Source of the DNA: a virus
IMG/VR virus record: IMGVR_UViG_3300021131_000056
Location: 1 to 21,923 of that record
DNA length: 21,923 nt
Direction: 5' to 3' (one strand)
Below the pieces are notes generated by a model. The model saw only the letters and a list, made by a program, of their open reading frames with translations. It did not search any database and was not told where the DNA came from. Positions 2,345 through 18,196 of this stretch are shown here, one piece after another (positions within the stretch are counted from its first letter, which is position 1; each line of letters begins with the position of its first letter). The position numbers and the translations under genes were made by a program.

Positions 2345-2548
2345 ATGAAAACCCAGCCTATCGCTCCAGCTTTTGCCCCCAAAATTCAACGTGAATATCC
2401 CACTTTGTCAGGACTCACCAAACGCGAGTATTTTGCGGCTGCGGCCATGCAGGGCCTTTGTGCCAACGAATCCTGCGCAGGGTTTGACGAAATCGCTCTT
2501 GACGCCGTAAAGCACGCAGACGCACTCATCGCCGCCCTGAACAAATGA
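2345..2548 (+). CDS. Small conserved-type phage protein (67 aa), LTKREYFAAAAMQG motif
   Basis: The ATG at 2345 is preferred over an upstream TTG at 2330 because 2330 lies inside the terminator U-tract. The protein has a short disordered N-terminus, the stretch LTKREYFAAAAMQGLCAN and a C-terminal helix DAVKHADALIAALNK. This layout (TKREYFA-A-A-QGL followed by ADALI-AL) is common among small proteins next to phage replication genes, but no biochemical function is known to me. It overlaps the next start by ATGA (2545-2548), so it is probably coupled to the nuclease gene. The sequence GGGG about ten bases before the ATG may serve as a weak ribosome binding site. Confidence 0.7.
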   Translation: MKTQPIAPAFAPKIQREYPTLSGLTKREYFAAAAMQGLCANESCAGFDEIALDAVKHADALIAALNK

Positions 2549-3744
2549 CCTCCCCCGCTCCCATCCCCGAACACTCCCGCCTTTCCCCGTCCAAAGCCCA
2601 CACCTGGACCGAATGCACGGCGGCACTCGCTTTTGTCAAAGCCAACGAGCATCGCTTGCCACCCGACAAGTCCGGCCCGGCTGCCATGGAGGGCACCAAA
2701 GCCCACACGGTTGCCGAGTATCTATTGCTGGGCAAACCTGCACCAAGCTGGGCCAGCAAGGAGATGCTGCGCCACGGCAAAGCGTACGCCGAGTTCTGCC
2801 ACGAAGTGATGGGGCCAAAGCGTGACGTGATCCGCTGGGGTGCCGAGTATCGGGCACCGCTGTATTACCTGCCCAGTGAGCGCGGCACCGTGGACTTTCA
2901 CGCGTTGACCAAGACCGGCGTGCATCTGGTGGACTACAAATACGGCTACGACCCAGTGGACTCCGAGCGCAACCTGCAAATGGCGATCTACGCCCGCAGC
3001 TTGATCGAAGACATGTTCGATGGCTTCTGGTATGGCCCACTGCCCGACGAGTTCCCCGTGACCGCGACCATCTTTCAGCCGCGATTGGAGAAAGACCACA
3101 CCACCTGGACGACGACCTGGGGCGAACTCAAAAAGTTCACTGACGAAGCGATCACTCCGAAAGCGCAGACAATCCTGCGCGGGGATACCGGCGTGTTCAA
3201 ATGCGGGCCGAAGATTTGCAAGTGGTGCCGAGCAGATGTGATCTGTGAAGCCTACAACAACTCCCTGCTCGATGACTTCAGGGACGTGGTGGAAGCCGTG
3301 CCGGACAAAGACCTGCCCGCCGTCTCCGCCATGCCGGACGAACGCCTCGTCCAGTTGTTCAACCACCGCGACAAGCTCACCGACTTTATCAAGGCACTGG
3401 AGAAATTCGTCAACGGGCGCATGCTTTCCGGCAATAAGCTCCCAGGAGTCAAGCTGGTGCTCAGTCGCGGCGGTCATCGCAAGTGGTCTGACCCAGACGC
3501 AGCGGGCAAACTGCTGCTCAGTCTGAAGCTGCCCTACGACGACGTGTACCCACCATCAGATGTCATCACTCCCGCTGTGGCCGAGAAGCTCACCAAGGAT
3601 ATGAAGGGCGAGAAGATGATTGAGATGCAACGTCTCATTATCAAGCCGCCCGGCCAACCCATCGCGGTGCCCGAGAATGACCCACGCGCACCGTACGAGA
3701 ACGACCTGACCAGCGACTTCGCTGGGGTCGATTTGTCCGAATAA
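2545..3744 (+). CDS. Cas4-like PD-(D/E)XK Fe-S nuclease (DUF2800 family)
   Basis: This is a probable phage recombination/replication exonuclease. The nuclease core is visible: H54 in EGTKAHTVAEYL, D117 in GTVDFHA, D130 and K132 in LVDYKYG, and the RecB-type motif NLQMAIYA (143-150). A cysteine cluster C220, C225, C228 and C234 (CKWCRADVICEAY) resembles the Fe-S cluster of Cas4/AddB-type nucleases; C24 may be another ligand. The length (399 aa) is usual for DUF2800. It sits immediately before a DUF2815 ssDNA-binding protein, a gene pair that recurs upstream of PolA in many phages. The C-terminal tail carries SDFAGVDL (390-397), which is also present in the DUF2815 protein. Its biochemical activity is inferred from motifs. 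Confidence 0.88.
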   Translation: MTSPAPIPEHSRLSPSKAHTWTECTAALAFVKANEHRLPPDKSGPAAMEGTKAHTVAEYLLLGKPAPSWASKEMLRHGKAYAEFCHEVMGPKRDVIRWGAEYRAPLYYLPSERGTVDFHALTKTGVHLVDYKYGYDPVDSERNLQMAIYARSLIEDMFDGFWYGPLPDEFPVTATIFQPRLEKDHTTWTTTWGELKKFTDEAITPKAQTILRGDTGVFKCGPKICKWCRADVICEAYNNSLLDDFRDVVEAVPDKDLPAVSAMPDERLVQLFNHRDKLTDFIKALEKFVNGRMLSGNKLPGVKLVLSRGGHRKWSDPDAAGKLLLSLKLPYDDVYPPSDVITPAVAEKLTKDMKGEKMIEMQRLIIKPPGQPIAVPENDPRAPYENDLTSDFAGVDLSE

Positions 3745-3831: not shown

Positions 3832-4551
3832 ATGAGCACCCCAGCACCCGCAAGAGATCCCAACGTCGGCACTTTCAGTGGCCGTTTCAGCTTCCCAGTA
3901 ATCAACGAGAAGCAGCGCCTAGCCGCCGAGCAGAAGCGCATGAAGAACCCCAAACCTGGCGAGGAGGACAAGTCCACCGGTTTCGGCTGGAGCGTCATCA
4001 TCGACAAGCAGACCGGTGCCAAGGACATCGAGAAGGCTTGGGAAATCATCAAGCGTGTCGCCGCTGAAAAAGCCGAGTGGACGGGCAAGATCGTCATGGT
4101 CAAAGGTCGCAAGGAACCACTGGTCAACCAGTCCAACCCCAAAGCCGAGAAGGTGGTGCTCATGGGCATTGCTCTGCACGAGGGCGAAGACAAAGCCGAC
4201 AAAGCTGGCTACGGTGATGATGTGATGTACATCAGTGCCAACCGTTCGGTGTCCAAAGGTCCACCTGCGGTCAAGGACAAAGCCTTTCAAGACATTCGCC
4301 CTGAAGAGTCGCACTACCCCTACGCTGGCTGCTATGTGAAGGTCAGCGTGCGCTTCTGGGCACAGGACAACGACTTCGGCAAGCGCATCAACGCCGAGGC
4401 CCGCGTGGTCATCTTTGACAAACACGGCGAACCGTTTGGCGAAGCACCTGTCGATGCTGAGTCCGACTTTGCCGGTGTTGACCTCGACGCCGACGATGAG
4501 ACTGCCCCAGCCGGGAAGTCCAAGGCTGCCGTGGACATCGACGACATGTAA
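3832..4551 (+). CDS. DUF2815-family ssDNA-binding protein
   Basis: This is a probable phage single-stranded DNA-binding or annealing protein acting at the fork and in recombination with the preceding Cas4-like nuclease. The 239-aa protein has the DUF2815 layout: an N-terminal GTFSGRFSFPVINEKQR, a central lysine-rich part (GWSVIIDKQTGAKDIEKAWEII), VMYISANRS and a conserved YPYAGCYVKVSVRFWAQDN strand segment. The acidic C-terminal tail (from about 205) is probably disordered and contains SDFAGVDL (211-218), identical to the end of the nuclease, before ending VDIDDM. Acidic tails in SSBs usually recruit partners. The start ATG 3832 has no Shine-Dalgarno sequence in front. The family call is by pattern and fairly sure. 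Confidence 0.82.
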   Translation: MSTPAPARDPNVGTFSGRFSFPVINEKQRLAAEQKRMKNPKPGEEDKSTGFGWSVIIDKQTGAKDIEKAWEIIKRVAAEKAEWTGKIVMVKGRKEPLVNQSNPKAEKVVLMGIALHEGEDKADKAGYGDDVMYISANRSVSKGPPAVKDKAFQDIRPEESHYPYAGCYVKVSVRFWAQDNDFGKRINAEARVVIFDKHGEPFGEAPVDAESDFAGVDLDADDETAPAGKSKAAVDIDDM

Positions 4552-4945: not shown

Positions 4946-7900
4946 ATGCCGTTTTCCATAGACTACGAAACCAAGAGCAGGGCAGACCTGGGCAACGTCG
5001 GCACTTTTCGATACGCCAAAGACCAGAGCACCGATGTCCTGTGCGTCTCCATCCGCAAGGACAAAGGCCCGGTGCTGGTGTGGATTCCTCCGCAGTACGA
5101 AACCCACGGCGACGTGTTTGGGGGTGTCGCCAGCGACCCCGGCGCGAAAGAACTACTCACCGAAGCCATGGAGTCCGACGAGCCGCTCAACGCTTTCAAC
5201 GTGCTGTTCGAGATCGCCATCACCGAGCACGTTCTGTGCCGCCTATACGGTTTCCCGCTACCCAACCGCAGACGCTGGCGCTGCACCATGGTCCTTGTCC
5301 GACGTGCCAATATCCCGGCATCTCTTGCCAAAGCGGCGGAGGCTCTCGGTATGCCACAGCAGAAGGACTCTGCGGGTAGCCGCCTGATCAAGAAGTTCTG
5401 CATCCCGCAGGAGGAAACCAACGAGTTTATCCACCCGCGCCAAGACTCGACCTCGTTCAAATCCTTCGCCGAGTACTGCCGCCAAGACACGTTGGTAGAA
5501 AGCGACATGCTGGAGCCGCTCAAACCGTTTGAGATGCGTGGTTGGGTGCTCGACATCTTCTTGGAGAGCATTGAGATGAACTGCCGGGGTATGCCCCTTA
5601 ACCTCGACGCGCTACGCAAGGCAGACGCCATGATTGAAAAGGAAACCGGCCCTGCCTTTGCCCAGTTTCGCGAACTTACCGGACTCAACCCCACGCAGAG
5701 CGCCAAGGTGAAAGCCTGGATCAACGCCAAAGGCCTGACCCTGGACAACTTGCAGGGCGATACCTTGGAAGCTATCGTCGATACCCTGGTGCAGTCGGGC
5801 CAAGAAAAGGCTCGGCAGGCGATTGAACTGATGCGGAAGATAGGTTTTGCCTCGGTGAAGAAGATCCGCACCATGCTGGATTGCGTAGGCCCAGATGACA
5901 ACTACCTCCGTGGATCTCTGGAATTTCACGGTGCCTCGACGATGCGCTGGAGCGGCAAGCTGCATCAGCCGCAGAACTTCAAGTCCCCCGAGGAATGGGC
6001 CGAGTCACTCACTGGCAAAATGTACGCCGACCTGTGCCATGGGGAGAGCAAGGAAGAACTCGAATGGTGGTATGGTCGCCCGATCTTTTCCATCCTCGCC
6101 AACTGCATCCGTCACTTCATTCAGGACAAACAAGGTCCAATGCTATCCGCCGACTACACCGCTATTGAGGCGATGATCTTGGCCTGGCTGGCGGGGGAGG
6201 AGTGGCGACTTGAGGTGTTTCGCACCCACAAGAAGATTTACGAGATGTCCGCCAGCCAGATGTTCGGCATCCCAATGCAGGAGTTTGAGGATTACAAGGC
6301 CAAGCACGGTAAGCATCACCCGATGCGCAAGACTGGGAAGGTGGCCGAGCTTGCGTGCATCGCGGAAGGCCAGCTTGTCACCACCGACCAAGGGCTGGTG
6401 CCGATTGAGCAGGTCACGTTGGAGATGAAGGTGTGGGATGGGATTTCATTTGTCAGTCACCAAGGTGTAGTGTATCAGGGTATCAGGGAAGTCCTGACTT
6501 ATGAAAACCTCACCGCTACGGAAGATCACATCGTATTCACAGAAGCAGGGCAAATGCAGTTCATTGACGCAGCCCGTCGGGGTAAACACTTGCACCAAAC
6601 CCGACCAAGTGGGCACGGTGTTTGGATGGGTAAAAGTGGTGTCCCCGTTGAGAGTGTACGTGAAACCCAATTGGCAAGAGTGCCAAGTGCAAACCGAGTG
6701 CCAAGGGTGCGGGAGGGTGTCTTGGCAAAACTGGTCGAGCCTGCAACGCGGCCTTTCCAAAGGCTGCCAGCGTTGTTCCCAGCCGAGGCGTACTCCCGCA
6801 TGGCTGCACAGCAGAGTGTCGGCAATGGAACAAAGATGCAACAACCCGAGGACTCCCAATTTCTACAACTACGGTGGAAGAGGAATCGAGTTTCGTTTCA
6901 GCACCGTGCTGGAAGGCAGCATATGGGTTCAAGAAAATCTGGGGTTACACCGAGGTCGAGAATTGGATCGCATCAACAACGATGGGCATTACGAGCCGGG
7001 AAACCTGCGATATGCCACTCGCTCCATGCAGAATCTCAACGCCAGACGCACAAAGATGACTGCGGAATGGTACGAGTGGTGCCGGACCAAAAGCCCCTAC
7101 TCCTTCCATACTTCGGTTCACCGGCTATCGTCAATGCAGAGCACAGAGGAGGTGATCGAGTCCGCGAAGGAAGCAGTGGTCAACAAGCGCAAGAACTGGC
7201 GTGTGATCCGAGGCCGACTCATCGAACTCGGGTATATGACATCATGAACTGTGGCCCGCGTAACCGCTTCACGGTGTCCGGCGTATTGGTTCACAATTGT
7301 GGGTACCAAGGAGCAGAGGGCGCACTGGTCAAGTTTGGCGCTCTCGACATGGGGCTGACACAGGACGAGTTGACACCTATCGTTGAAAAGTGGCGAGCAG
7401 CCAACCCCATGATCGCCGACTTCTGGCATGCCTGCGAACGTGCAGCCATCCGAGCAGTGAAGATGCCGGGCCAAATCTTCGAGGTGGGCAAGCTGTCCTT
7501 CGTCTGCGCCCGTGCCGCTGGTGCTCACTACTTGTTCATGCGCCTACCGTCTGGCCGGAAGCTGGCCTACCGTGATCCCAAGATTTCCGAGGTGCAGGCC
7601 AAAAGCAAAAAGACTGGCAAGGAGTACACTAAGACCTCGCTGTCCTACTATGGGCAGATCCCCGGCCCCACTGGTGCCAAGTCCACCAAATGGGGGCATG
7701 TCAGCCTATACGGAGGGAAGGCCACGGAAAATGCCTGCCAGGCAATCGCCTTCGACATCATGGCAAATGGCACCCTCAAAGCCGCCGCCAAAGGGTACCG
7801 CATTTACTCGTTGATCCACGATGAAGCCTTGGCGGCATTCGACGGACCCCACCAAAGCCTAGAGGAGTTTCAACGATGCCTTGAAGACGTGCCAGCATGG

Positions 7901-7957
7901 TGTGACGGGCTACCAGTGAGCACCAGTGGAGCAGTTGTCCCCTATTACACCAAATAG
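4946..7957 (+). CDS. Family A DNA polymerase with 3'-5' exonuclease, interrupted by an intein
   Basis: This is the replicative polymerase of the phage. The N-terminal DnaQ-type proofreading domain shows exo I DYETKS (D6, E8), exo II FNVLFE (N85, E89) and exo III YCRQD (Y177, D181). The polymerase domain shows motif A DYTAIEA (D403, E408), motif B RKTGKVAELA-CGYQG split by the intein after A470, and motif C HDE (958-960). The translation product is 1003 aa; removing intein residues 471-784 gives a 689-aa polymerase, a normal size for phage PolA-type enzymes. The start ATG 4946 follows the structured gap and has no Shine-Dalgarno sequence. The DUF2800-DUF2815-PolA order is a common phage replication cassette. 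Activity requires protein splicing, because the intein sits in the nucleotide-binding O-helix. Confidence 0.93.
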   Translation: MPFSIDYETKSRADLGNVGTFRYAKDQSTDVLCVSIRKDKGPVLVWIPPQYETHGDVFGGVASDPGAKELLTEAMESDEPLNAFNVLFEIAITEHVLCRLYGFPLPNRRRWRCTMVLVRRANIPASLAKAAEALGMPQQKDSAGSRLIKKFCIPQEETNEFIHPRQDSTSFKSFAEYCRQDTLVESDMLEPLKPFEMRGWVLDIFLESIEMNCRGMPLNLDALRKADAMIEKETGPAFAQFRELTGLNPTQSAKVKAWINAKGLTLDNLQGDTLEAIVDTLVQSGQEKARQAIELMRKIGFASVKKIRTMLDCVGPDDNYLRGSLEFHGASTMRWSGKLHQPQNFKSPEEWAESLTGKMYADLCHGESKEELEWWYGRPIFSILANCIRHFIQDKQGPMLSADYTAIEAMILAWLAGEEWRLEVFRTHKKIYEMSASQMFGIPMQEFEDYKAKHGKHHPMRKTGKVAELACIAEGQLVTTDQGLVPIEQVTLEMKVWDGISFVSHQGVVYQGIREVLTYENLTATEDHIVFTEAGQMQFIDAARRGKHLHQTRPSGHGVWMGKSGVPVESVRETQLARVPSANRVPRVREGVLAKLVEPATRPFQRLPALFPAEAYSRMAAQQSVGNGTKMQQPEDSQFLQLRWKRNRVSFQHRAGRQHMGSRKSGVTPRSRIGSHQQRWALRAGKPAICHSLHAESQRQTHKDDCGMVRVVPDQKPLLLPYFGSPAIVNAEHRGGDRVREGSSGQQAQELACDPRPTHRTRVYDIMNCGPRNRFTVSGVLVHNCGYQGAEGALVKFGALDMGLTQDELTPIVEKWRAANPMIADFWHACERAAIRAVKMPGQIFEVGKLSFVCARAAGAHYLFMRLPSGRKLAYRDPKISEVQAKSKKTGKEYTKTSLSYYGQIPGPTGAKSTKWGHVSLYGGKATENACQAIAFDIMANGTLKAAAKGYRIYSLIHDEALAAFDGPHQSLEEFQRCLEDVPAWCDGLPVSTSGAVVPYYTK
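6356..7297 (+). mobile_element. Intein in polymerase motif B (314 aa)
   Basis: Hint-type splicing features are present in the polymerase frame. These are the first residue C471 followed by IAEGQLVTTDQGLVPIEQV (block A), block B TEDH (T525-H528), block F VYDIMNCGPRNRFTVSG, and the end VLVHN with C785 as the +1 residue of the C-extein. Both junctions fall within the conserved motif B, a typical intein insertion point. Between roughly 6600 and 7228 the polymerase-frame translation has no recognisable domain, because this stretch instead encodes an HNH endonuclease in another frame. The frame is nevertheless open throughout. Exact excision would leave LA-CGYQG, an ordinary PolA sequence, which supports the boundaries strongly. 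Confidence 0.92.
6501..7247 (+). CDS. HNH homing endonuclease nested out of frame inside the intein
   Basis: This open frame is shifted relative to the polymerase/intein frame and lies wholly inside the intein coding region. It has the classic layout of phage HNH endonucleases: VGTVFGWVKVV (37-47), a zinc-binding pair C67-C70 and C89-C92 (CQGCG ... GCQRC), MEQRCNNPRTPNFYNYGGRGI (109-129) and the HNH core LDRINNDGHYEPGNLR (155-170) with YATRSMQNLNARR. The ATG at 6501 is an upper bound for the start; residues before about 35 overlap intein block B and look non-native, so GTG 6609 or GTG 6618 may be the true start. The stop TGA 7245-7247 lies just inside the splicing block F region. It probably makes the break that spreads the intein. 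The start codon and its expression are unproven. Confidence 0.8.
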   Translation: MKTSPLRKITSYSQKQGKCSSLTQPVGVNTCTKPDQVGTVFGWVKVVSPLRVYVKPNWQECQVQTECQGCGRVSWQNWSSLQRGLSKGCQRCSQPRRTPAWLHSRVSAMEQRCNNPRTPNFYNYGGRGIEFRFSTVLEGSIWVQENLGLHRGRELDRINNDGHYEPGNLRYATRSMQNLNARRTKMTAEWYEWCRTKSPYSFHTSVHRLSSMQSTEEVIESAKEAVVNKRKNWRVIRGRLIELGYMTS

Positions 7958-8488: not shown

Positions 8489-8709
8489 GCGCCTTCACCT
8501 GCCCCTCCTGTCAAAAACAAATCACCGTTGAACCCTTAGACGCACCCCTCCGACTATGCCGCGACTGCCGAAACCAAAAACACGCAAGCCTCTCGAAAAG
8601 GAAATCGAGAAGAAAATCTGCGACTACGCCAAGCAGCTTGGATGCTACGTCCGCAAGTTCACCAGCCCCAACCAGCGGTCAGTGCCCGACCGACTCATCA
8701 TCGCCTTAG
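8485..8709 (+). CDS. Possible zinc-ribbon peptide overlapping the VRR-NUC gene (74 aa)
   Basis: ATG 8485 overlaps the exonuclease stop (ATGA). The first 31 residues contain two CxxC pairs, CPSC and CRDC, spaced like a small zinc ribbon. After about residue 31 the sequence becomes Ser/Lys/Arg/Pro-rich and coincides with the first half of the VRR-NUC gene in another frame, so it may have no selected structure. The 71 bp from 8485 to 8555 would otherwise be a gap, unusual in this packed operon. It could be a true overlapping gene or the remnant of a zinc ribbon once fused to the nuclease. Moderate to low confidence. Confidence 0.45.
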   Translation: MSAFTCPSCQKQITVEPLDAPLRLCRDCRNQKHASLSKRKSRRKSATTPSSLDATSASSPAPTSGQCPTDSSSP

Positions 8710-8906
8710 GTGGCGCGGTGGGATTCCTCGAAATTAAGCGTGGCGGCGAAAGTCCCACGAAAGCGCAGGAGCACGAGATGAACTTGCTCAAGAAGCAAGG
8801 CTGTGACGTGTGGTGGTGTGACAACGTGGATGTCGGCAAAGCCTTCGTGGACGCGCTGGTCAAAGCAGGAGAAAAGAACAAAGAAAATCAGGACTTCTGG
8901 GGATGA
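8556..8906 (+). CDS. VRR-NUC domain nuclease
   Basis: This is a 116-aa stand-alone VRR-NUC protein, a PD-(D/E)XK nuclease family frequent in phage replication cassettes and probably acting on branched or Holliday-type DNA. Visible features are an N-terminal helix EKEIEKKICDYAKQLGC (E16 region), the catalytic SVPDR (D45), FLEIKRG (E59, K61) and a conserved glutamine in TKAQ (Q71), followed by WWCDNVDVG. The length is typical of the minimal family. The C-terminus NKENQDFWG is an acidic/polar tail ending in FWG, shared with the next two proteins. The gene overlaps the methyltransferase start by ATGA (8903-8906). Confidence 0.88.
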   Translation: MPRLPKPKTRKPLEKEIEKKICDYAKQLGCYVRKFTSPNQRSVPDRLIIALGGAVGFLEIKRGGESPTKAQEHEMNLLKKQGCDVWWCDNVDVGKAFVDALVKAGEKNKENQDFWG

Positions 8907-9634
8907 GCATTCAACTTATGCTTGGCGAATGCCTTGAGCGCATGCAGGAAATCGAAACCGGCAGCGTGGACATGGTGATGGCTGATCTGCCTTATGGAAC
9001 GACTGCCTGCAAATGGGACACAGTGATTCCTTTTGTCCCACTCTGGGAGCAATACCGTCGCGTGTGCAAGAAAAATGCAGCCATCGTGCTCACGGCAAGC
9101 CAGCCGTTTACGAGCACTCTTGGAGCATCAAATGCCGATGCGCTAAAATACTCATGGGTGTGGGCGAAGTCCTCGGCAACTGGGCATCTCAACGCCAAAC
9201 GGATGCCAATGAAAATCCACGAAGATATACTGGTGTTTTCTGATGCCCCACACAACTATTTTCCGCAAGGGCTAAAGCCTCATGGGAAAATCACCCGGCG
9301 CGGGAGCAACGGAGACAACTTCGGCAAAAGCGGGGTCGAAAATTTCCAAGAGTGGACAAACTATCCGCGTTCTATTCTTGAGTTCCCTTCTGAGGGAAGA
9401 CCGATCCACCCGACTCAAAAACCGGTCGCCTTGATGGAGTACTTGATCCGCACTTATACCAACGAAGGCGAGACGGTTCTCGACAACACCATGGGTAGTG
9501 GTACAACCGGCGTGGGTTGCATCAACACCAGGCGCAGCTTCATCGGCATCGAGCGTGATCCCGCCTACTTTAAGATTGCGCAGGCCCGGTGCGGCGTCGA
9601 GCCTGGGTTCAATGAAAAGGAGTTCTGGGGATGA
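8903..9634 (+). CDS. DNA methyltransferase, beta class (N6-adenine or N4-cytosine)
   Basis: This is a SAM-dependent DNA methyltransferase modifying adenine N6 or cytosine N4. Motif IV DLPYGTT (D28-Y31) comes first and the SAM-binding motif I, DNTMGSGTTGVG (194-205), is near the C-terminus followed by FIGIERDPAYF; this order defines the beta class. The segment HPTQKPVALMEYLIR is the usual motif X region. No restriction endonuclease partner is adjacent, so it is an orphan phage enzyme that may protect phage DNA from host restriction. It lies in the replication operon with ATGA overlaps on both sides. The protein ends NEKEFWG, sharing the FWG tail. Target site unknown. Confidence 0.92.
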   Translation: MSIQLMLGECLERMQEIETGSVDMVMADLPYGTTACKWDTVIPFVPLWEQYRRVCKKNAAIVLTASQPFTSTLGASNADALKYSWVWAKSSATGHLNAKRMPMKIHEDILVFSDAPHNYFPQGLKPHGKITRRGSNGDNFGKSGVENFQEWTNYPRSILEFPSEGRPIHPTQKPVALMEYLIRTYTNEGETVLDNTMGSGTTGVGCINTRRSFIGIERDPAYFKIAQARCGVEPGFNEKEFWG

Positions 9635-11073
9635 ACTTCACTCCCGCCCCGCCGCAAAAGCTGTTGATCGACAAGATGTGCAGCCAAGACATTGTTTATG
9701 GACTTCTGGGATGTGGCCTTGGCAAGACCGCCGCCGTGCTCGCTGCCTTCGTTCAAATGAAAGCCGAACGCAGGGTGAAGGCCATGCTGGTGATCGCACC
9801 CATGCGAGTATGCACCTTGACATGGCCCATGGAGGTGCAGGCATGGTCACAATTCAAACACTTGTGTGTGGCTAATCTTAGAACTCCGCTGGGGCGGCAG
9901 GCGTTTATTGCTGGGAGAGGAGATGTGTTTCTCGTGAACTACGAGTCCATCCCGCTGCTTGTAAAATTGGTGGAGAAGCGTGGAGGCACTGTCCCCTACC
10001 AGATGGTGGTGTACGATGAAATTACAAAGGCTAAATCTTCACAGTCTAAGCGTATCAATATGCTACGCCGTGAAGTACCACAGGTCAAGTATCGAACGGG
10101 CCTAACTGGTACTCCGACGCCAAATTCCTTGATGGACTTGTTCGCTCAAGTACGGCTTCTAGACGATGGCCAACGGCTGGGTCGCAGCTTTGACCATTTC
10201 AAGAAGACTTACTTTAGCCCGGTAGATTACCACCAGTATGACTGGCAACCAGTCGCAGGCGCTGCCGAGCGTATCGACTCCCGTATTGCTGACATCACCC
10301 TCACCCTGCGCACATCGGACTGGCTCAAGGATTTGCCGGATTACAACGTTAACGACATCGAGATAAAACTGCCACCCCACGTCATGGAACAATACGAGGA
10401 GTTCAAACGTGAGTTGATCTTGGACCTTCGCCGGGAAGTACAGATTACAGCAGCCAATGCGGCGGTGCTAGTACGCAAGCTGCTCCAGTTTACTTCTGGC
10501 TGCATCTACGATGGGGAGAAGAAAGCACATGATGTGCATGACTTCAAAACGGCTGCTCTTGCCAAGCTGGCAAAGGAGACCAAAGAGCCGTTGCTAGTAC
10601 TGTGTGATTTCAAACACGAGCAAGAGCGCATCAGGCGCAAGTTTCCACAGGCCCGGTTCTTCGCCGATGCGAAAACTCCGTCCTTACAAGTGCAACTCAT
10701 TACTCAGTGGAACCGGCGCGAGATACCCATGCTGGTCGGACACCCTCTTTCGATGGGACATGGTCTGAACCTTCAGGCAGGATCACAAACCATGGTGTGG
10801 ATGACCCTCTCATTTTCGAGAGAGCAGTATGAACAAACGATTGCCCGATTGTATAGAAGGGGTCAAAGGAATGTCGTTACCGTCCACCGTCTCATGGTGC
10901 CCGGCACAGTGGATGATGTAGTGGCCGAGGTGCTGGAGGAAAAGCGCAACACCGAGCAACGTCTGCTCACTGCTCTGATGCTCTTGGAAGGGGATCGCAA
11001 AGGCAGGCCCGCGCTCAAGATCAAACCCTCTGAACCTGAAGGAGAGTTCGACGAAGAAGCCTTCTGGGGTTGA
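9631..11073 (+). CDS. SNF2-like SF2 DNA helicase/translocase
   Basis: This is an ATP-dependent DNA translocase of the small phage SNF2 type. The motifs appear in order: Walker A GCGLGKT (27-33), motif II VVYDEITKA (D129, E130), motif III LTGTPTPN (158-165), then in the second RecA lobe LVGHPLSMGHGLNLQAGS (about 366-383) and motif VI QTIARLYRRGQ (about 402-412), followed by the typical HRLMVPGTVDDVVAEVL. At 480 aa it has no extra DNA-binding domain, as is usual for phage versions found next to VRR-NUC. It probably remodels forks or recombination intermediates together with the nuclease. It ends EFDEEAFWG, the third consecutive FWG tail. Codon choice is somewhat more A/T-rich than in the structural genes. 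Confidence 0.92.
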   Translation: MNFTPAPPQKLLIDKMCSQDIVYGLLGCGLGKTAAVLAAFVQMKAERRVKAMLVIAPMRVCTLTWPMEVQAWSQFKHLCVANLRTPLGRQAFIAGRGDVFLVNYESIPLLVKLVEKRGGTVPYQMVVYDEITKAKSSQSKRINMLRREVPQVKYRTGLTGTPTPNSLMDLFAQVRLLDDGQRLGRSFDHFKKTYFSPVDYHQYDWQPVAGAAERIDSRIADITLTLRTSDWLKDLPDYNVNDIEIKLPPHVMEQYEEFKRELILDLRREVQITAANAAVLVRKLLQFTSGCIYDGEKKAHDVHDFKTAALAKLAKETKEPLLVLCDFKHEQERIRRKFPQARFFADAKTPSLQVQLITQWNRREIPMLVGHPLSMGHGLNLQAGSQTMVWMTLSFSREQYEQTIARLYRRGQRNVVTVHRLMVPGTVDDVVAEVLEEKRNTEQRLLTALMLLEGDRKGRPALKIKPSEPEGEFDEEAFWG

Positions 11074-11107: not shown

Positions 11108-11359
11108 ATGACTCCTGAAACAGCACCGAATCCCCAGCAACGTTTGTCCGCCCTCGACACTCAAGTCGGCGGCACTCACTACAAAGACATGGCGATCCAG
11201 CCGATTGAGTTCTGCACCAAAAACCGGCTCGGCTTTGCCGAGGGATTGGCGATCAAATACATCTGCCGCCACGAGCAGAAGAACGGCGCACAGGACTTGG
11301 ACAAAGCCATCCACTGTTTGCAACTCCTGCGAGAACTGCGCTACGGTAATCCTTCCTGA
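11108..11359 (+). CDS. DUF3310 protein (83 aa)
   Basis: This is a small phage protein with the DUF3310 signature GGTHYKDMAIQPIEF (21-35), the helix FAEGLAIKYICRHEQKNG (43-60) and DLDKAIHCLQLLREL (63-77). The family is common in phages and sometimes annotated as nucleotide-kinase-like (SaV), but its activity is not established. It is first in the operon after the promoter at 11070 and overlaps the terminase start by one base (TGATG). Confidence 0.85.
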   Translation: MTPETAPNPQQRLSALDTQVGGTHYKDMAIQPIEFCTKNRLGFAEGLAIKYICRHEQKNGAQDLDKAIHCLQLLRELRYGNPS

Positions 11360-13362
11360 TGCCTCCCCCTGCCAAACCCGCCGCCGCCAAGCGCCCTGCC
11401 GCACAACCCGTGCAGCAGCCCAACGAGCGCACTCACATTGCACGGTACGGGCGGTGGTGGAAGCGGCTGCCGGGAGTGCCCAAGACCAGTGCAGGCTATG
11501 ACCTGTTGCAGGAGGTTGCCATCGAGAAGTACATCTGTGGCAACTACGACGCCTTGGTGGCGCTGCCTGGCAGTCAGTTGAACCCGTGGACCTGGCACTT
11601 CCGCAGGTTCATCTCACTGATGCTGGAGCGGCCCGAAACAAATCCGCGCTACCGCTTCGAGTGGAACCCCTACGCCATGCGGATGCTGGAGGAGGCGTAC
11701 AAAAACAACTTCCTCGCGGTTGCCGGTCATGCCAGTTGCTCCAAGTCGGAGTTCTTCGCCCTCTATGCGATTGGTCGGTTCCTCATCGGTGCTCGCTTTC
11801 CTGACTGCCCGGTGGCCTCGCCGGAATACGTCAAGGTCTTCATTACCTCCACCTCGTTGGATGAATCCCGTGGTCGTATCTGGGGCGTGGTCGAAGGATA
11901 CTGGGCAGAGATTTGTCGGTTCTTCGGTGGTGAGCAGTACATGCAGGCCAAGCTCATCTCTTCCACCGGGAAGATCGTGCGAGTCAATCCCGACGGCAGG
12001 CAGAACCAGCTTTCAGGAATCACTCTGGTAGCTGGGGGTAAGGGGCAAGACAAGGACGCCTCCACCAAGATCGGTTTCAAGAACCGCTGCGTAATCTTCA
12101 TCGCAGATGAACTGCCACTGTTGACGCACGCACTCTACAACACCGCCATCACCAACTTGCAGTCCAACGAGTACCTGCAATTCATCGGCATCGGCAATCC
12201 CACCTCGCCGTTCGACCCGCTCGGCGTGTTCATGGAACCGGATGAAGGCTGGGCCTCGGTTGATGAAACCTTTAACGGGTGGAAGACCAAGCGCGGCTAC
12301 TGCATCCGCTTCGACGGGGAGAAGTCTCCCAACGTGCTTGCTGGTCGAGAAATCTGGAAAGGCATTCTCAGCTTGCGCACCGTCACGGATCTGCGCGAAA
12401 GCCTCGGCCCCAAGTCACCCGAGTATTACCGCATGGTGCGCGGCTACCTCTCCCCCGATGGTGACGCCAACGCCATCTACACCGAGGTCGAAATCATCTC
12501 CAGCGGCAGTCAGGGCAAAGTTACCACCTGGCTCACGCCACCCGAGTTGATCGCGTTCATCGACCCGGCCTTCAGCCATGGCGGGGACGAAGCGCCCATG
12601 TGTGTCGCCCGCCTCGGCGACTACTTCTCACCCATCCACCAGCGCAACGTCAAAGGCATCGAACGAGTGGAGACAGTCAACCTTATGGCGAAGGTGGACG
12701 CCAGCAACAAGGAGATAGATCGCAACCAGCAGTTAGTGAACCTGTTCCACGAAGAGTGTGTTGCCCGAGGGATCAAGGTTGAAAACCGGGGTGTGGACTC
12801 CACGGGCGCAGGTGATCCGTTCTCCACCCTCATGGCGATCACCATGGGACGAGGCTTCCAGATGGTGAGCTTTGCCGGTGCGCCGTCAGACAAGACCGTC
12901 GGCACCACCAACTCCCGCAGCGGCAAAGACCGTTTCGCCAACCGCGTCTCCGAGTTGTGGTACGTCGGCAAAGACTTTATGAAGGCCGGGCAGATACGAG
13001 GACTGGACCCTGAAACCTGCATCCAAATGTGCGCCCGCATGTACAAGCTGGTGGACCGGGAGAAAGTTGAGGTCGAGTCCAAGAAGATCATGAAGCAGCG
13101 GACCAACGGGCGAAGCCCCGACCGTGCCGACGCCTTCTTTGGCTGCATCGAGATTGCCCGCCGCCGCTATGGTCTGTCCTCGCTGGTACGGGCTGGCACA
13201 CGCGCCCCGCTGCCGTCTGCACCGGAAAGCCGCACAGCCTACCGCCAGGCCGCCCTGGAGTCCACGCTGGCCGGGCGTTCAGGCAAACCTCGGTTCTCCG
13301 ATCTGAACGTGCCCACGTTGAGCGGGGTAAACGGATTTGCAGATTCGCAACGATTCGGTTGA
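11359..13362 (+). CDS. terL: Terminase large subunit (packaging ATPase and nuclease)
   Basis: This is the motor that cuts and packages phage DNA into proheads. The ATPase domain carries a Walker A position VAGHASCSKSEF (G123-S130) and Walker B VIFIADELPLL (D250, E251), followed by IGIGNPTSPFDPLG, a coupling-motif-like segment. The RNase H-like nuclease domain shows IAFIDPAFSHGGDEA (D402), NRGVDSTGAGDPF (D480) and SPDRADAFFG (D588/D591). At 667 aa it is on the long side for TerL, with a disordered Ala/Pro N-terminus. The Walker A is unusual: serine replaces the glycine before the catalytic lysine (SKS instead of GKS). No small terminase subunit is recognisable nearby, and a portal gene does not follow directly. 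Confidence 0.9.
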   Translation: MPPPAKPAAAKRPAAQPVQQPNERTHIARYGRWWKRLPGVPKTSAGYDLLQEVAIEKYICGNYDALVALPGSQLNPWTWHFRRFISLMLERPETNPRYRFEWNPYAMRMLEEAYKNNFLAVAGHASCSKSEFFALYAIGRFLIGARFPDCPVASPEYVKVFITSTSLDESRGRIWGVVEGYWAEICRFFGGEQYMQAKLISSTGKIVRVNPDGRQNQLSGITLVAGGKGQDKDASTKIGFKNRCVIFIADELPLLTHALYNTAITNLQSNEYLQFIGIGNPTSPFDPLGVFMEPDEGWASVDETFNGWKTKRGYCIRFDGEKSPNVLAGREIWKGILSLRTVTDLRESLGPKSPEYYRMVRGYLSPDGDANAIYTEVEIISSGSQGKVTTWLTPPELIAFIDPAFSHGGDEAPMCVARLGDYFSPIHQRNVKGIERVETVNLMAKVDASNKEIDRNQQLVNLFHEECVARGIKVENRGVDSTGAGDPFSTLMAITMGRGFQMVSFAGAPSDKTVGTTNSRSGKDRFANRVSELWYVGKDFMKAGQIRGLDPETCIQMCARMYKLVDREKVEVESKKIMKQRTNGRSPDRADAFFGCIEIARRRYGLSSLVRAGTRAPLPSAPESRTAYRQAALESTLAGRSGKPRFSDLNVPTLSGVNGFADSQRFG

Positions 13363-14614: not shown

Positions 14615-16958
14615 CCCTGTGAAAATATCCCTCCTCCACGCAACCCGTCGCCCCGACGCCGCCAAGAAGTGCCAACAGCTTTGGCTGGACCGCACCGAGA
14701 ACCGCGCAAACGTCGAGATCGTCACCGCCATTGACGCGGGGGACGTTGCTTGCCAAGCAGCTTTCCCCGATGCCGCCGTCTCCACTGGCTACGGTGCCTG
14801 CGCTGCTTGGAACGAAGCCGCCAAGCACGCAACCGGCGACATCCTGGTAGTGCTGGACGACGACTGGGAATGCCCACACGGATGGGACGAGTTGATCGTG
14901 TCGCGCATGTGCAATGGTGCCGACATTCTGCACGTCGGCGACAAGCACCGGAAAGACGACCTGATCTGCCACCCCATCGTCTCGCGCCGGTTCTACGACA
15001 CCATCGGCTACATCTGGCACCCGGCATTCAAGTCCGTCTATTGCGACAACTGGTTCACCACCATGGCAAAAGCATGGGGCTACGTCGATGCAACTGAAGG
15101 TGGCACCGTGGACCTGGGGTTTCTGCATGCCAACCCGTCCCAAGGTTACGGGCAGGAGGACGATGTGGCCCGCATCAGCAACTCCGGTGAACGCTACGCC
15201 CACGGCAAAGCCGTCTTTGACCAACTCACCCAGAACAACGTGGTGCTGGCCTTCACCGCCTACAACCGGGTGGACTTCCTCAAGCGCAGCCTCGACTCGT
15301 GGAGGCACACCAACTTGAGCCTCGTCACCAGCGTCCAGTTTTTCATCGAGCCGAGCGACCAGCTTGCCGAGATTCTGGAAGTCATTAACGTGTTCAAGGC
15401 ACTCTGCCCGGTGCCAGTGATCGTCCACGTCAACCCTGAGAAATATGGCGTCTTGCGCAACCCGTGGGAGCTTTTCGACAACTTGTTCAACAAGCAGTTA
15501 GCACAGTTCGTGATCCTCGGCGAAGACGACTTTCTGGTATCGCCCGACACCCTCGACTTCTTCGAGGCGATGCGCGGGCAGATGAACGACTCAACCATGG
15601 CTATCTGCGCTAAGTGGGTTGGAGCCGGTGCCAATCGTGAGCCTGCTTCGTGGCACCGCACCAACGAGTTCACCGGCAACGTCTGGGGCACTTCAAAGCA
15701 AGTGTGGAACTCCTTCCTGCGCGACACCTGGGACTTCGATTACAGCAGCGGCACCCCTGACGCTCCGGAGTCGGGGTGGGATTGGAATATCGGTCTGCGC
15801 GTCATGCCCCGCAACGGTCTGCACTGCATCGTGCCCACGGCCTCACGGTCCTACCACATTGGCACTGTCGGTGTCCACTGCACCGAGGAAGACTACCAAG
15901 CTACCACCACTCACAACTTTGTGTCGGCAGCCTACAAGGGTTCCTACGTTGGCTGCTCTAAAGGCGTGTCGGAGTTGCGCGTCTCCAGCACCGGCGATCT
16001 TGGCGACATCGTGGTGATGCTCGCCACCTTGAAGGCGACCGGCAAGCAGTGCGACGTGTATTTGCGCAACGCTCCCAACACCGCCGGTATTCTGCACCGC
16101 GTCCACCTCATCAAACCCTTGCTGGAGACACAGCCATACGTCGGCAGTGTCAACGTTTGGAAGGATGAAGAGTTGCACTGGGAGTCCGAGCGGTTTCGCC
16201 ACTACGGGTACACCAACAACGGCCTGAACCTCGCGCACAACCATGCTCAGGCAGCGGTGCAGGATGGCTTCATCTCTGAGTTGCCGGACGTGCGCAACCC
16301 GTGGCTCACCGTTGAGCCGGACACCCGTTATGCTGGTCGCGTCATCATCAACCGCAGCTTTCGCTACAACAACGACACGTTCCCGTGGGCCAAGATCGTG
16401 GACCACTATGGCGAGAAGATTTTGTTCATCGGTCTGCCCGAGGAGCACGCAGCGTTCTGCGCCAAGTTTGGGCACGTCGAGTACTCGCTGCCTCGCGACT
16501 TCCTCGTGGTCGCACAGACCATCGCAGGCTCGGCGCTATTCATCGGCAACCAGTCCTCCTGTATGACCGTGGCAGAGGGGCTGAAGCATCCGCGCATCCA
16601 AGAGGTGTGCCTGACACAGCCGGACTGCATCTACCCGCCCGGCACTGGTGCGCAATATGTCGCCGACGGCAACGTCCGACTACCCGATGGCACGGTGCTC
16701 AAGGGCAACCGACCCCCTGCCGAGAGGAAAACCGCCGTCACGCCGCCAGGCGGATGGAAGTACCCCGGTCACGACACGCTGCCCATCTTTGAGGTGCTGG
16801 TGAAAACAGTTGCCAGAGGGGAGAATCTCACTACTGAGGAAGCCGCCAACCGCGTGTACGACGCCAACGTTGAACGCTGTCCTGAGTTCTTCACCGACCG
16901 CACTCTGCGGATGGAGCTTCAGAAGTTTAACCGCGCACTTGAACAATACCCAGCATGA
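14607..16958 (+). CDS. Multi-domain glycosyltransferase (two GT-A-like and one GT-B-like domain)
   Basis: This is a 783-aa fusion with three apparent glycosyltransferase-like parts. The first GT-A-like domain starts ISLLHATRRPDAAKKC and has a metal-binding LDDDWE (D84-D86). The second begins about residue 212 (VVLAFTAYNRVDFLKRSL) and has LGEDDF (E306-D308) and a WDWNIGLRV segment. The third, from about 450, resembles GT-B heptosyltransferase-like enzymes: STGDLGDIVVMLATLKATG at the start and LFIGNQSSCMTVAEGL (about 643-658) where the family binds the nucleotide sugar. The C-terminus (about 709-783) carries TPPGGWKYP, a module shared with the cysteine-rich protein at 18536-19129. It may glycosylate a virion protein, the host surface or modified DNA; the acceptor is unknown. 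Domain calls are from motifs. Confidence 0.75.
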   Translation: MPDPVKISLLHATRRPDAAKKCQQLWLDRTENRANVEIVTAIDAGDVACQAAFPDAAVSTGYGACAAWNEAAKHATGDILVVLDDDWECPHGWDELIVSRMCNGADILHVGDKHRKDDLICHPIVSRRFYDTIGYIWHPAFKSVYCDNWFTTMAKAWGYVDATEGGTVDLGFLHANPSQGYGQEDDVARISNSGERYAHGKAVFDQLTQNNVVLAFTAYNRVDFLKRSLDSWRHTNLSLVTSVQFFIEPSDQLAEILEVINVFKALCPVPVIVHVNPEKYGVLRNPWELFDNLFNKQLAQFVILGEDDFLVSPDTLDFFEAMRGQMNDSTMAICAKWVGAGANREPASWHRTNEFTGNVWGTSKQVWNSFLRDTWDFDYSSGTPDAPESGWDWNIGLRVMPRNGLHCIVPTASRSYHIGTVGVHCTEEDYQATTTHNFVSAAYKGSYVGCSKGVSELRVSSTGDLGDIVVMLATLKATGKQCDVYLRNAPNTAGILHRVHLIKPLLETQPYVGSVNVWKDEELHWESERFRHYGYTNNGLNLAHNHAQAAVQDGFISELPDVRNPWLTVEPDTRYAGRVIINRSFRYNNDTFPWAKIVDHYGEKILFIGLPEEHAAFCAKFGHVEYSLPRDFLVVAQTIAGSALFIGNQSSCMTVAEGLKHPRIQEVCLTQPDCIYPPGTGAQYVADGNVRLPDGTVLKGNRPPAERKTAVTPPGGWKYPGHDTLPIFEVLVKTVARGENLTTEEAANRVYDANVERCPEFFTDRTLRMELQKFNRALEQYPA

Positions 16959-18196
16959 AAATCTGCATCCCCGCATCCGCCCACGACAAACACCTCCTCG
17001 CTGCCCAAGCTGACTGCCTGCTCAAGTGCGGCGGCTTGGAGGAGCACACCGTTCACTACTTCCCCACCCTGTCCGCCAAGGAGGCTGCCTACGAGGCCGC
17101 TGAGAAGCTGGGTGCCGAGGTCCATCCGTTTGACCGCGACTTCCCCGGTGGCGCTCCTGTCGCCTGCAACAACCACTTCGCCATGGTCGTGGATGCCCTC
17201 GGCAAGATGGGCAACGCCGAACCGTTCCTGGTGATGGAGCCAGACATGCTGCCAGCGCCTGGCGTTCACCGCTGGGCTGATCGCCTGTTGGAGGACTACC
17301 GCATGCGCGGTGCGCCGTTCATGGGCAACGTCGTGCCGACGCCTTTTAACGCGGACGGGCAACTGACCTACTCCGACGGCGACACCATGATGATGGGCTG
17401 CGGCATCTATCCGCCGTTCATGGAGAAGGACGAGCGCATCAAGCCTCTCATCAAAGACCTGTCCATGCCTGAGTGGATGAATCCCAAGATCCCTTGGGAC
17501 ATCTACCTGCGCTGGGCGATCAAGAACATCGGCGTGTCCGACACTCCGCTCATCGCCGACATGTGGGCAACTGAGAAGTACCTACTCACTGCCAAGGGCA
17601 TCGAGTGCCAGTCCGTTGACCATGGCGAGAAGGTCGTGCGCAAGCGTGGCGGCGTTGTGCCCAAGGAGGCGCTGCTGATCCACGGCTGCAAGGACGGGAC
17701 ACTGGCTCAGATCGTGCTGAACGACGTGAAGTGGTCGGATGTGCAGAAAGCAGCGGCAGAAGGCGTTTCGTTCAAAGCTCTTGGGAAGCAGGTCGCAATT
17801 ACCCCGCGTGCAGATGGATGGTCAGACGTGCAAATTCAGGACGAGAAAAACGCTGCGGAAGCCGCAGACGACGATGACTTCTGGGGCGACGACAAGCAGC
17901 CTGCACAGTCCGAACCGGCAGAGCCTGCCACGGTCATCCCCGTGGCCGCGCCCAAGCCGAAAGCCGAACCCGCGAAGCCCAAGGCACCAGTGGAAGCGCC
18001 AAAGGTGGTCGCCCGTTGCACCGTCACCCGTGGTGACATCGAGAAGGCCATGGGCGGCGAGTCCATGCGTGCCAGCGCCCTTGCCGACAAGCTGGGGGTG
18101 AAGGTCGAAGACCTGATCGGCACGTTCGCCACGAACGGTTACGTCGTCGCTGCCGCTGGGTGGGTGAAAAGCACAATTCCGATCACTGCCGATTGA
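16955..18196 (+). CDS. Glycosyltransferase-like protein with disordered linker and C-terminal helical domain (413 aa)
   Basis: The N-terminal part (about 1-260) looks like a GT-A-type glycosyltransferase: MKICIPASAHDKHLLAAQ, the DxD-like FLVMEPDMLP (95-97), MMMGCGIYPP and a late HGCKDGT. A long low-complexity linker follows (about 295-355), containing DDDDFWGDD and an Ala/Pro/Lys/Glu stretch much like that of the 157-aa protein. The last 60 residues (DIEKAMGGESMRASALADKL then GVKVEDLIGTF) resemble a small winged-helix or IF2-N-like domain that could bind nucleic acid or protein. It overlaps the larger glycosyltransferase by ATGA, so the two probably act on the same substrate. The enzyme assignment is moderately sure; the tail's role is not known. 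Confidence 0.65.
   Translation: MKICIPASAHDKHLLAAQADCLLKCGGLEEHTVHYFPTLSAKEAAYEAAEKLGAEVHPFDRDFPGGAPVACNNHFAMVVDALGKMGNAEPFLVMEPDMLPAPGVHRWADRLLEDYRMRGAPFMGNVVPTPFNADGQLTYSDGDTMMMGCGIYPPFMEKDERIKPLIKDLSMPEWMNPKIPWDIYLRWAIKNIGVSDTPLIADMWATEKYLLTAKGIECQSVDHGEKVVRKRGGVVPKEALLIHGCKDGTLAQIVLNDVKWSDVQKAAAEGVSFKALGKQVAITPRADGWSDVQIQDEKNAAEAADDDDFWGDDKQPAQSEPAEPATVIPVAAPKPKAEPAKPKAPVEAPKVVARCTVTRGDIEKAMGGESMRASALADKLGVKVEDLIGTFATNGYVVAAAGWVKSTIPITAD

Follow-up and report, generated by a model that had tools for sequence, protein, structure and literature searches.

An acidic Phe-Trp-Gly tail common to non-homologous proteins in a lineage of uncultured phages

The FWG tail in the window

The stretch of DNA analysed here (the window; 21,923 nucleotides, positions 1 to 21,923 of IMG/VR virus record IMGVR_UViG_3300021131_000056) is a fragment, 21.9 kb long, from an uncultured phage. 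Its replication module consists of a DUF2800 nuclease, a single-stranded DNA-binding protein (SSB) of the Enc34/T7 type, a family-A DNA polymerase, a VRR-type nuclease, a DNA methyltransferase and an SNF2 helicase. The last three are encoded by consecutive genes and end in QDFWG, KEFWG and EAFWG respectively, and a further copy of the motif lies inside a 413-residue protein encoded downstream. All four copies had been named in a first reading of the letters alone (the sequence-only reading), and all are present where that reading placed them. Comparison with related phages shows that this FWG tag is genuine, is conserved as protein sequence, is common to non-homologous proteins, and is added as new genes arrive. 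The genes and motifs concerned are:

8556..8906, plus strand: VRR-type endonuclease gene, C-terminal ENQDFWG (PHROG 93 endonuclease, E 6e-26; no Pfam match)
8883..8903, plus strand: tail codons E-N-Q-D-F-W-G of the VRR gene
8903..9634, plus strand: N4/N6 DNA methyltransferase gene, C-terminal NEKEFWG (Pfam N6_N4_Mtase, E 1e-25)
9611..9631, plus strand: tail codons N-E-K-E-F-W-G of the methyltransferase gene
9631..11073, plus strand: SNF2-type helicase gene, C-terminal DEEAFWG (Pfam SNF2-rel_dom, E 3e-17)
11050..11070, plus strand: tail codons D-E-E-A-F-W-G of the SNF2 gene
16955..18196, plus strand: 413-residue GT-A-like protein with the internal motif (no Pfam match; weak structural resemblance)
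17867..17893, plus strand: internal motif DDDDFWGDD in a disordered linker, residues 305–313 of the 413-residue protein

The structural resemblance of the 413-residue protein consists of weak Foldseek matches to glycogenin and GnT-I, obtained from a low-confidence model. The VRR and methyltransferase genes overlap the next start (ATGA) and the SNF2 gene does not, as the sequence-only reading had also stated. The VRR and methyltransferase genes are identical at 18 of their last 27 nucleotides.

Frequency of the tail

The expected rate of such an end, computed from residue frequencies, is 3.4e-4 per protein. Near-complete relatives contain six to eight tailed open reading frames (ORFs) each and the window contains three; one of the eight in relative G012 is an out-of-frame relict. 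The relatives (handles such as L006) are IMG/VR contigs found by homology searches, and many of the rows represent near-identical phages. The gene caller misses short or atypical genes (two of the three tailed window genes were called), and all ORFs of at least 40 residues with the tail were therefore counted as well. At the nucleotide level, the pattern F-W-x-stop gave 60 matches in 17 records, several of which are near-identical and not independent, and its reversed control gave 5. Ends consisting of [FYW]W plus up to two residues were found in none of the 1044 genes called in 22 named phages.

A stricter pattern, F[DN]E[DE]xFWG-stop, matched 15 viral contigs, 14 of them already known from SNF2 or terminase homology; in the fifteenth, L033, the same two genes, SNF2 and terminase, are present. 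Bacterial and archaeal genomes totalling 257 billion bases gave one chance-like match to the pattern, outside any ORF called on that strand, and a profile search of bacterial host genomes found no relative. The shared tail is not explained by chance: the comparison with chance frequency that the sequence-only reading had proposed places FWG far above expectation.

Conservation and carriers of the tail

The FW tail is kept in 15 of 18 rows of the SNF2 family, the exceptions being L006, with the variant FNWDD, and L010 and L025, which are without it. In the VRR family it is kept in 12 of 13 rows (all but L010), with flanks that drift through QDFWG, GDFWE, KDFWA, GGFWK, PRGFWG and QGGFWG. A kept tail between drifting flanks is what the sequence-only reading had suggested looking for in homologues. 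The internal FWG of the 413-residue family is likewise kept in five of the seven homologues read, within a linker that is otherwise unalignable.

Further carriers in the relatives, including the remainder of some of their records, are a C5-cytosine methyltransferase, two Dam-type methyltransferases, a PAPS-reductase-like protein, a DUF4326 protein, an acetyltransferase (PHROG 11143, two copies), and HNH-like, HTH-like and several unknown proteins, the HTH assignments being weak. Recognized carriers are in most cases nucleic-acid-acting or -binding. The sequence-only reading had proposed a phage-specific motif; the shared motif stands, with the correction that it belongs to a lineage rather than to one phage and occurs on many more than four proteins.

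Thirty tailed representatives were chosen from the lists of tailed genes for containing FW, near-identical copies being left out; the out-of-frame ORF ending at L016:9415, the SSB of L006 (SDDWD), the SNF2 protein of L006 (NWDD) and the internal copies are not among them. With the last 18 residues removed, the representatives fall into 13 clusters (blastp, E 1e-3) with unrelated bodies, the SNF2, VRR-type and DUF2800 proteins and N4/N6 methyltransferases being represented along with the families just listed. In one of these clusters, methyltransferases are linked to a small unknown domain by a fusion protein (L049:3068-4282), in which a tailed N4/N6 methyltransferase is joined to this domain; the domain alone (119–149 residues, also FW-tailed) is found in relatives. 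The residue after F-W is G, D, E, A, K or S in all 30 representatives. The F codons are divided between TTC (16) and TTT (14), the G codons between GGA (12), GGT (8) and GGC (1), and the stops between TGA (24), TAA (5) and TAG (1). Since the F and G codons and the stops differ and F-W is constant, conservation acts on the peptide.

For the acetyltransferase (382 residues), the best homologue rows align as far as about residue 348 and some weaker rows reach 357 and 379; for the DUF4326 protein (98 residues), homologues align up to residues 80–82, short of the tail. The alignments of both proteins to other phages thus mostly stop before the tail, indicating that the tail is an addition.

No reader gene restricted to tail-plus genomes was marked out by the comparison, the core replication genes being present also in G003, a relative without FWG. 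A few small untailed proteins occur in tail-plus genomes and not in G003 (e.g. L048:4801-5160 and L048:1004-1300), and nothing marks them as a reader. Protein ends in G003 (L010, L054-L056) include EEEWV, DEFV, EEDFV and DDLWV, with DDI-type ends on the SSB and others; these are possibly that relative's own tag.

SSB, DUF2800 nuclease and polymerase

The remaining replication genes of the window that bear on the tail are:

2545..3744, plus strand: DUF2800 nuclease (Pfam DUF2800, E 1e-55)
3712..3735, plus strand: SDFAGVDL near the DUF2800 C-terminus, also in the SSB tail
3832..4551, plus strand: Enc34/T7-type SSB (DUF2815), end DIDDM, without FWG (Pfam Enc34_ssDNA-bd, E 1e-17)
4462..4485, plus strand: SDFAGVDL in the SSB tail
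4946..7957, plus strand: family-A DNA polymerase, end VVPYYTK, no shared tail (Pfam DNA_pol_A, E 2e-7)

The best Foldseek match of the window SSB is 5odl (E 6e-10), with a profile match to 5odj (E 4e-25). The model is of moderate confidence, with a predicted local distance difference test (pLDDT) score below 50 for tail residues 213–239; it confirms the fold and is silent on binding. The peptide SDFAGVDL is identical in the end of the DUF2800 nuclease and in the SSB tail. Across phages, the DUF2800 tail resembles the SSB tail of its own phage more than those of others (score 528 versus a permuted mean of 400, sd 21; 20 phages). The comparison was made with 26 phages without T7 and in a second version with six of these removed, and 0 of 10000 permutations reached the observed score in either version. 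The effect is not uniform: the own pair ranked first in only five of the 26 phages, fell below the mean of the others in four (pCB2051A, S1/44, Fanboy and SJC23, the SSB tail of S1/44 being possibly misread from a partial SSB match) and was about equal in two (KcrB and L007).

The window polymerase scores 30.8 bits against Pfam DNA_pol_A, below the cutoff of 34.3, and relatives align over both halves. It is tail-free in 12 of 12 rows of the window's group, and the polymerase is without the phage's shared tail in all 18 named phages in which one was detected; four named phages gave no polymerase match to the queries used, although FoX4 has an annotated polymerase. The window polymerase has 1003 residues versus 712 in L006, and its extra middle part overlaps a 248-residue ORF in another frame (6501-7247; no Pfam match). 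This middle part resembles an intein at its start and end.

Shared acidic tails in named phages

In phage Enc34, the primase, ORF3, exonuclease, SSB and terminase small subunit all end in acidic ..EV. The wider pattern was analysed in 21 named phages with an Enc34-type SSB plus T7, an acidic tail being defined by at least four D/E within the eight residues before the last. Of 363 pairs of tailed proteins within a genome, 222 (0.61) agree in the last residue, versus 0.19 between genomes; 0 of 10000 permutations reached the within-genome value, and none of the 363 pairs is homologous. With three close Enc34 relatives removed, 149 of 237 pairs agree and again 0 of 10000 permutations reached the value. 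Proteins without an acidic tail agree at 0.078 within and 0.071 between genomes; this small excess was reached by only 1 of 1000 permutations, and composition thus contributes a little.

The sharing is most evident in Enc34 (8 of 10 end in V), Chi (8 of 9 V), MA12 (10 of 11 L), SS2019XI (7 of 8 L) and FoX4 (7 of 7 L). Phages of the Enc34, Chi and FoX4 types carry 6–10 unrelated proteins per genome with a common acidic tail and a phage-specific last residue (V or L), and S1/44, BPP-1, KcrB and eiAU have few or no acidic tails. By its sequence, the FWG tail of the window looks like an aromatic variant of this pattern, and its receptor may differ from that of the DEV-type tails. A literature search for shared tails beyond T7 found none, most subscription journals lying outside its coverage.

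Two other named phages have ends of separate types. In Curvibacter phage PCA1 (OP588919), the primase, exonuclease and VRR nuclease end in SDLFG, SDLFN and KDLFT, another shared tail, which is non-acidic. Erythrobacter phage EliS-R16L (PQ394075) encodes a 137-residue protein ending in DDLDDDIPF, which resembles the bacterial SSB tip, and five of its nine acidic tails end in I.

Comparison with known systems

The C-terminal tip of bacterial SSB, DDDIPF, combines acidic residues with an aromatic one and recruits many partners. In that system one SSB carries the tip and the partners read it, whereas here the enzymes carry the tag; a terminal PF after acidic residues, as in the bacterial tip, is absent from the 30 FWG tails. 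Clamp-binding C-terminal peptides of phage T4 and bacteria offer a second parallel, in that a short hydrophobic peptide at the terminus serves unrelated proteins for docking. The FWG tail differs from them in sequence, and the QLxLF-like core of the bacterial clamp consensus is absent from the 30 listed tails.

Phage T7 is a closer parallel. Its gp2.5 ends in DGDF and its gp4 in DTDF, so that two non-homologous replication proteins carry a common acidic tail with an aromatic residue, as several do here, and the window phage likewise encodes both a gp2.5/Enc34-type SSB and a family-A polymerase. According to the available text of the sources, basic patches of the T7 family-A polymerase gp5 are the binding sites of the acidic gp4 tails, and removal of these tails costs gp4 its processivity (PMC12593628, PMC5997990, PMC8835902). 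Many more protein families are tagged here than in T7, DNA-modification enzymes included. The FWG tail was set outside the T7 type because its aromatic residues are not terminal and the SSB does not carry it. The sequence-only reading had mentioned docking on SSBs, which comes close to the best precedent, T7 gp2.5/gp4, except that the window's own SSB does not end in FWG.

The ..DEV tails of Enc34 and Chi belong to the same replication module, and there too the SSB and several other proteins have one acidic tail; the end is V there and F-W-G here. In crystals of the Enc34 SSB, DUF2815 proteins and gp2.5, the acidic ends insert in a groove of the neighbouring molecule (PMC5686142). The available text of PMC5686142 on the Enc34 SSB tail does not describe its sharing with other proteins.

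Proposed function of the tail

From the constant absence of the tail on the polymerase, together with the T7 gp4/gp5 and Enc34 SSB-groove precedents, we infer a docking role for the FWG tag, which would bring DNA-acting proteins onto a common replication partner. The reading we favor, with moderate confidence, is that the tail is a short linear docking motif, composed of acidic residues, F-W and then a small or acidic residue, which is fitted onto many unrelated DNA-acting proteins of one lineage and would dock them on one common partner. A docking function is likely, and the putative partner would be the phage polymerase, the groove of the phage SSB or a host protein. The likeliest candidates are the family-A polymerase of the phage, as with the gp4 tails and gp5 of T7, or the OB-fold groove of the phage SSB, as in the Enc34 crystals, without a choice between the two. 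The tag, which in most cases forms the extreme C-terminus and in some lies within a disordered linker, would bring its carriers to this partner at the phage replication site, where the docked modification, nuclease and helicase enzymes would act on newly made phage DNA. In favor of this reading are the varied codons of the unrelated tailed clusters, the strict-pattern matches that fall almost wholly within the lineage, the tails that extend past the aligned part of acetyltransferase and DUF4326 homologues, the internal FWG of the 413-residue family, the gene inserted between two tail copies in L016 and the relict tail beside a working one (both described below), the mostly nucleic-acid-related roles of recognized carriers, the shared last residues in named phages and the T7 precedent. 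The sequence-only proposal that the enzymes gather on one partner thus gains partial support from the conservation and frequency of the tail, its docking element being still presumptive.

Several observations weigh against this reading. Most of the 30 tails are acidic, and several VRR tails are almost without acidic residues (SPRGFWG, REGGFWK). The DUF2800 nuclease has an FW tail in only 2 of 11 rows (L006 and L007), and none of 12 SSB rows ends in FWG, the nearest being SDDWD in L006. The parallel with T7 is incomplete: the T7 tail closes on its aromatic residue, but the F-W of the window lineage has a further residue (G, D, E, A, K or S) behind it and also occurs in internal copies, and the SSB, tagged in T7, lacks FWG in this lineage. 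BPP-1, KcrB, eiAU and Adelaide have a family-A polymerase and no shared acidic tails, so that the presence of the polymerase does not predict tails. Finally, part of the spread of the tails is DNA recombination, which could carry them without function.

A broader and more tentative possibility is a genome-wide code of C-terminal membership in phages whose replication modules are of the T7/Enc34 type. One tag per phage (DEV, DDL, DDI, acidic-FWG etc.) would mark the primase, the nucleases, the small terminase subunit, the DNA-modifying enzymes and in many cases the SSB, and a matching phage hub would read it; in the window's lineage, the tag-coding repeats would double as joints, and a captured gene would be tagged on insertion. 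If a docking code of this kind holds, sequence alone would suffice to list uncharacterized proteins active at a phage's replication site, and the way in which newly acquired genes join that site would be explained. The two-protein case of T7 would become a general rule, testable in culturable phages such as Chi or Enc34, and a phage-specific tag with its reader would form a simple orthogonal recruitment module.

Alternative explanations

Docking on a host protein (e.g. the sliding clamp or another replication factor), by which the tail would hijack the host rather than join a phage hub, is unlikely. The PCA1 ends described above resemble clamp motifs; however, the bacterial clamp consensus Q-x-x-L-F occurs in 0 of the 30 tails, and phages whose enterobacterial hosts are related have different last residues. 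This alternative does have a general bacterial precedent in short clamp-binding peptides, according to the available text of PMC11139829.

It is quite improbable that the shared ends are mainly a DNA effect, with repeats of the tail-coding sequence serving as joints where cassettes recombine and the peptide arising incidentally, although signs of such joints are visible. In L021, the SNF2 tail leads directly into ATGAAATTTAACC. In L016, the C5 methyltransferase gene sits exactly between the SNF2 tail and a second copy of the tail, after which L021-like downstream sequence resumes (77 of 100 nucleotides match after the second tail versus 33 of 100 after the L016 SNF2 gene). At L016:9386-9444, an out-of-frame FNEAQFWG lies just upstream of the working SFNEEDFWG tail of this methyltransferase and is, by its sequence, a relict beside it. 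SNF2 and the neighbouring gene have 21–25 of their last 27 nucleotides in common in L005, L008 and L016. Given the C5 gene inserted between tail copies and the relict tail, the tail-coding repeats seem to act as joints for gene exchange. As the cause of the shared ends, however, recombination is opposed by the differing codons of carriers with a constant F-W, by the 413-residue family, which retains FWG within its drifting linker, by the VRR tails, which keep FW despite differing flanks, and by the limited identity (18 of 27 nucleotides) between the window VRR and methyltransferase ends. A pure nucleotide motif was rejected as the main cause on account of the codon variation and remains a rival for how the tails spread.

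That the tail sorts its carriers to the virion or a compartment of the phage, and not to a replication protein, is very doubtful: the tag does occur, like an address label, on a wide range of proteins that includes some without a known role, but the named carriers are of replication and modification types and include no recognized structural protein. A translation-coupling or ribosome-binding constraint at the ATGA overlaps has next to no probability and was rejected, for although GGGGATGA closes two window copies and overlaps the start that follows, the window SNF2 gene overlaps none, the last codons and stops vary, internal copies exist and tails are found on both strands; the sequence-only reading had rightly held that overlap does not cover all four copies.

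Other observations

The terminase of the window (11359-13362) has only weak matches in named phages, the best, at 27.5% identity with 36% of the query covered, being to an Akkermansia phage, which is no proof of host; judged by this gene, the lineage is without a close named relative. A 157-residue window protein (1802-2275) ends in DDFGPF and is not an FWG carrier, and small proteins beside the replication genes in L015 (7245-7691) and L010 (9138-9587) end in EGDPF and DTEPF. By their sequences, these three ends are a second acidic end type within the same phages.

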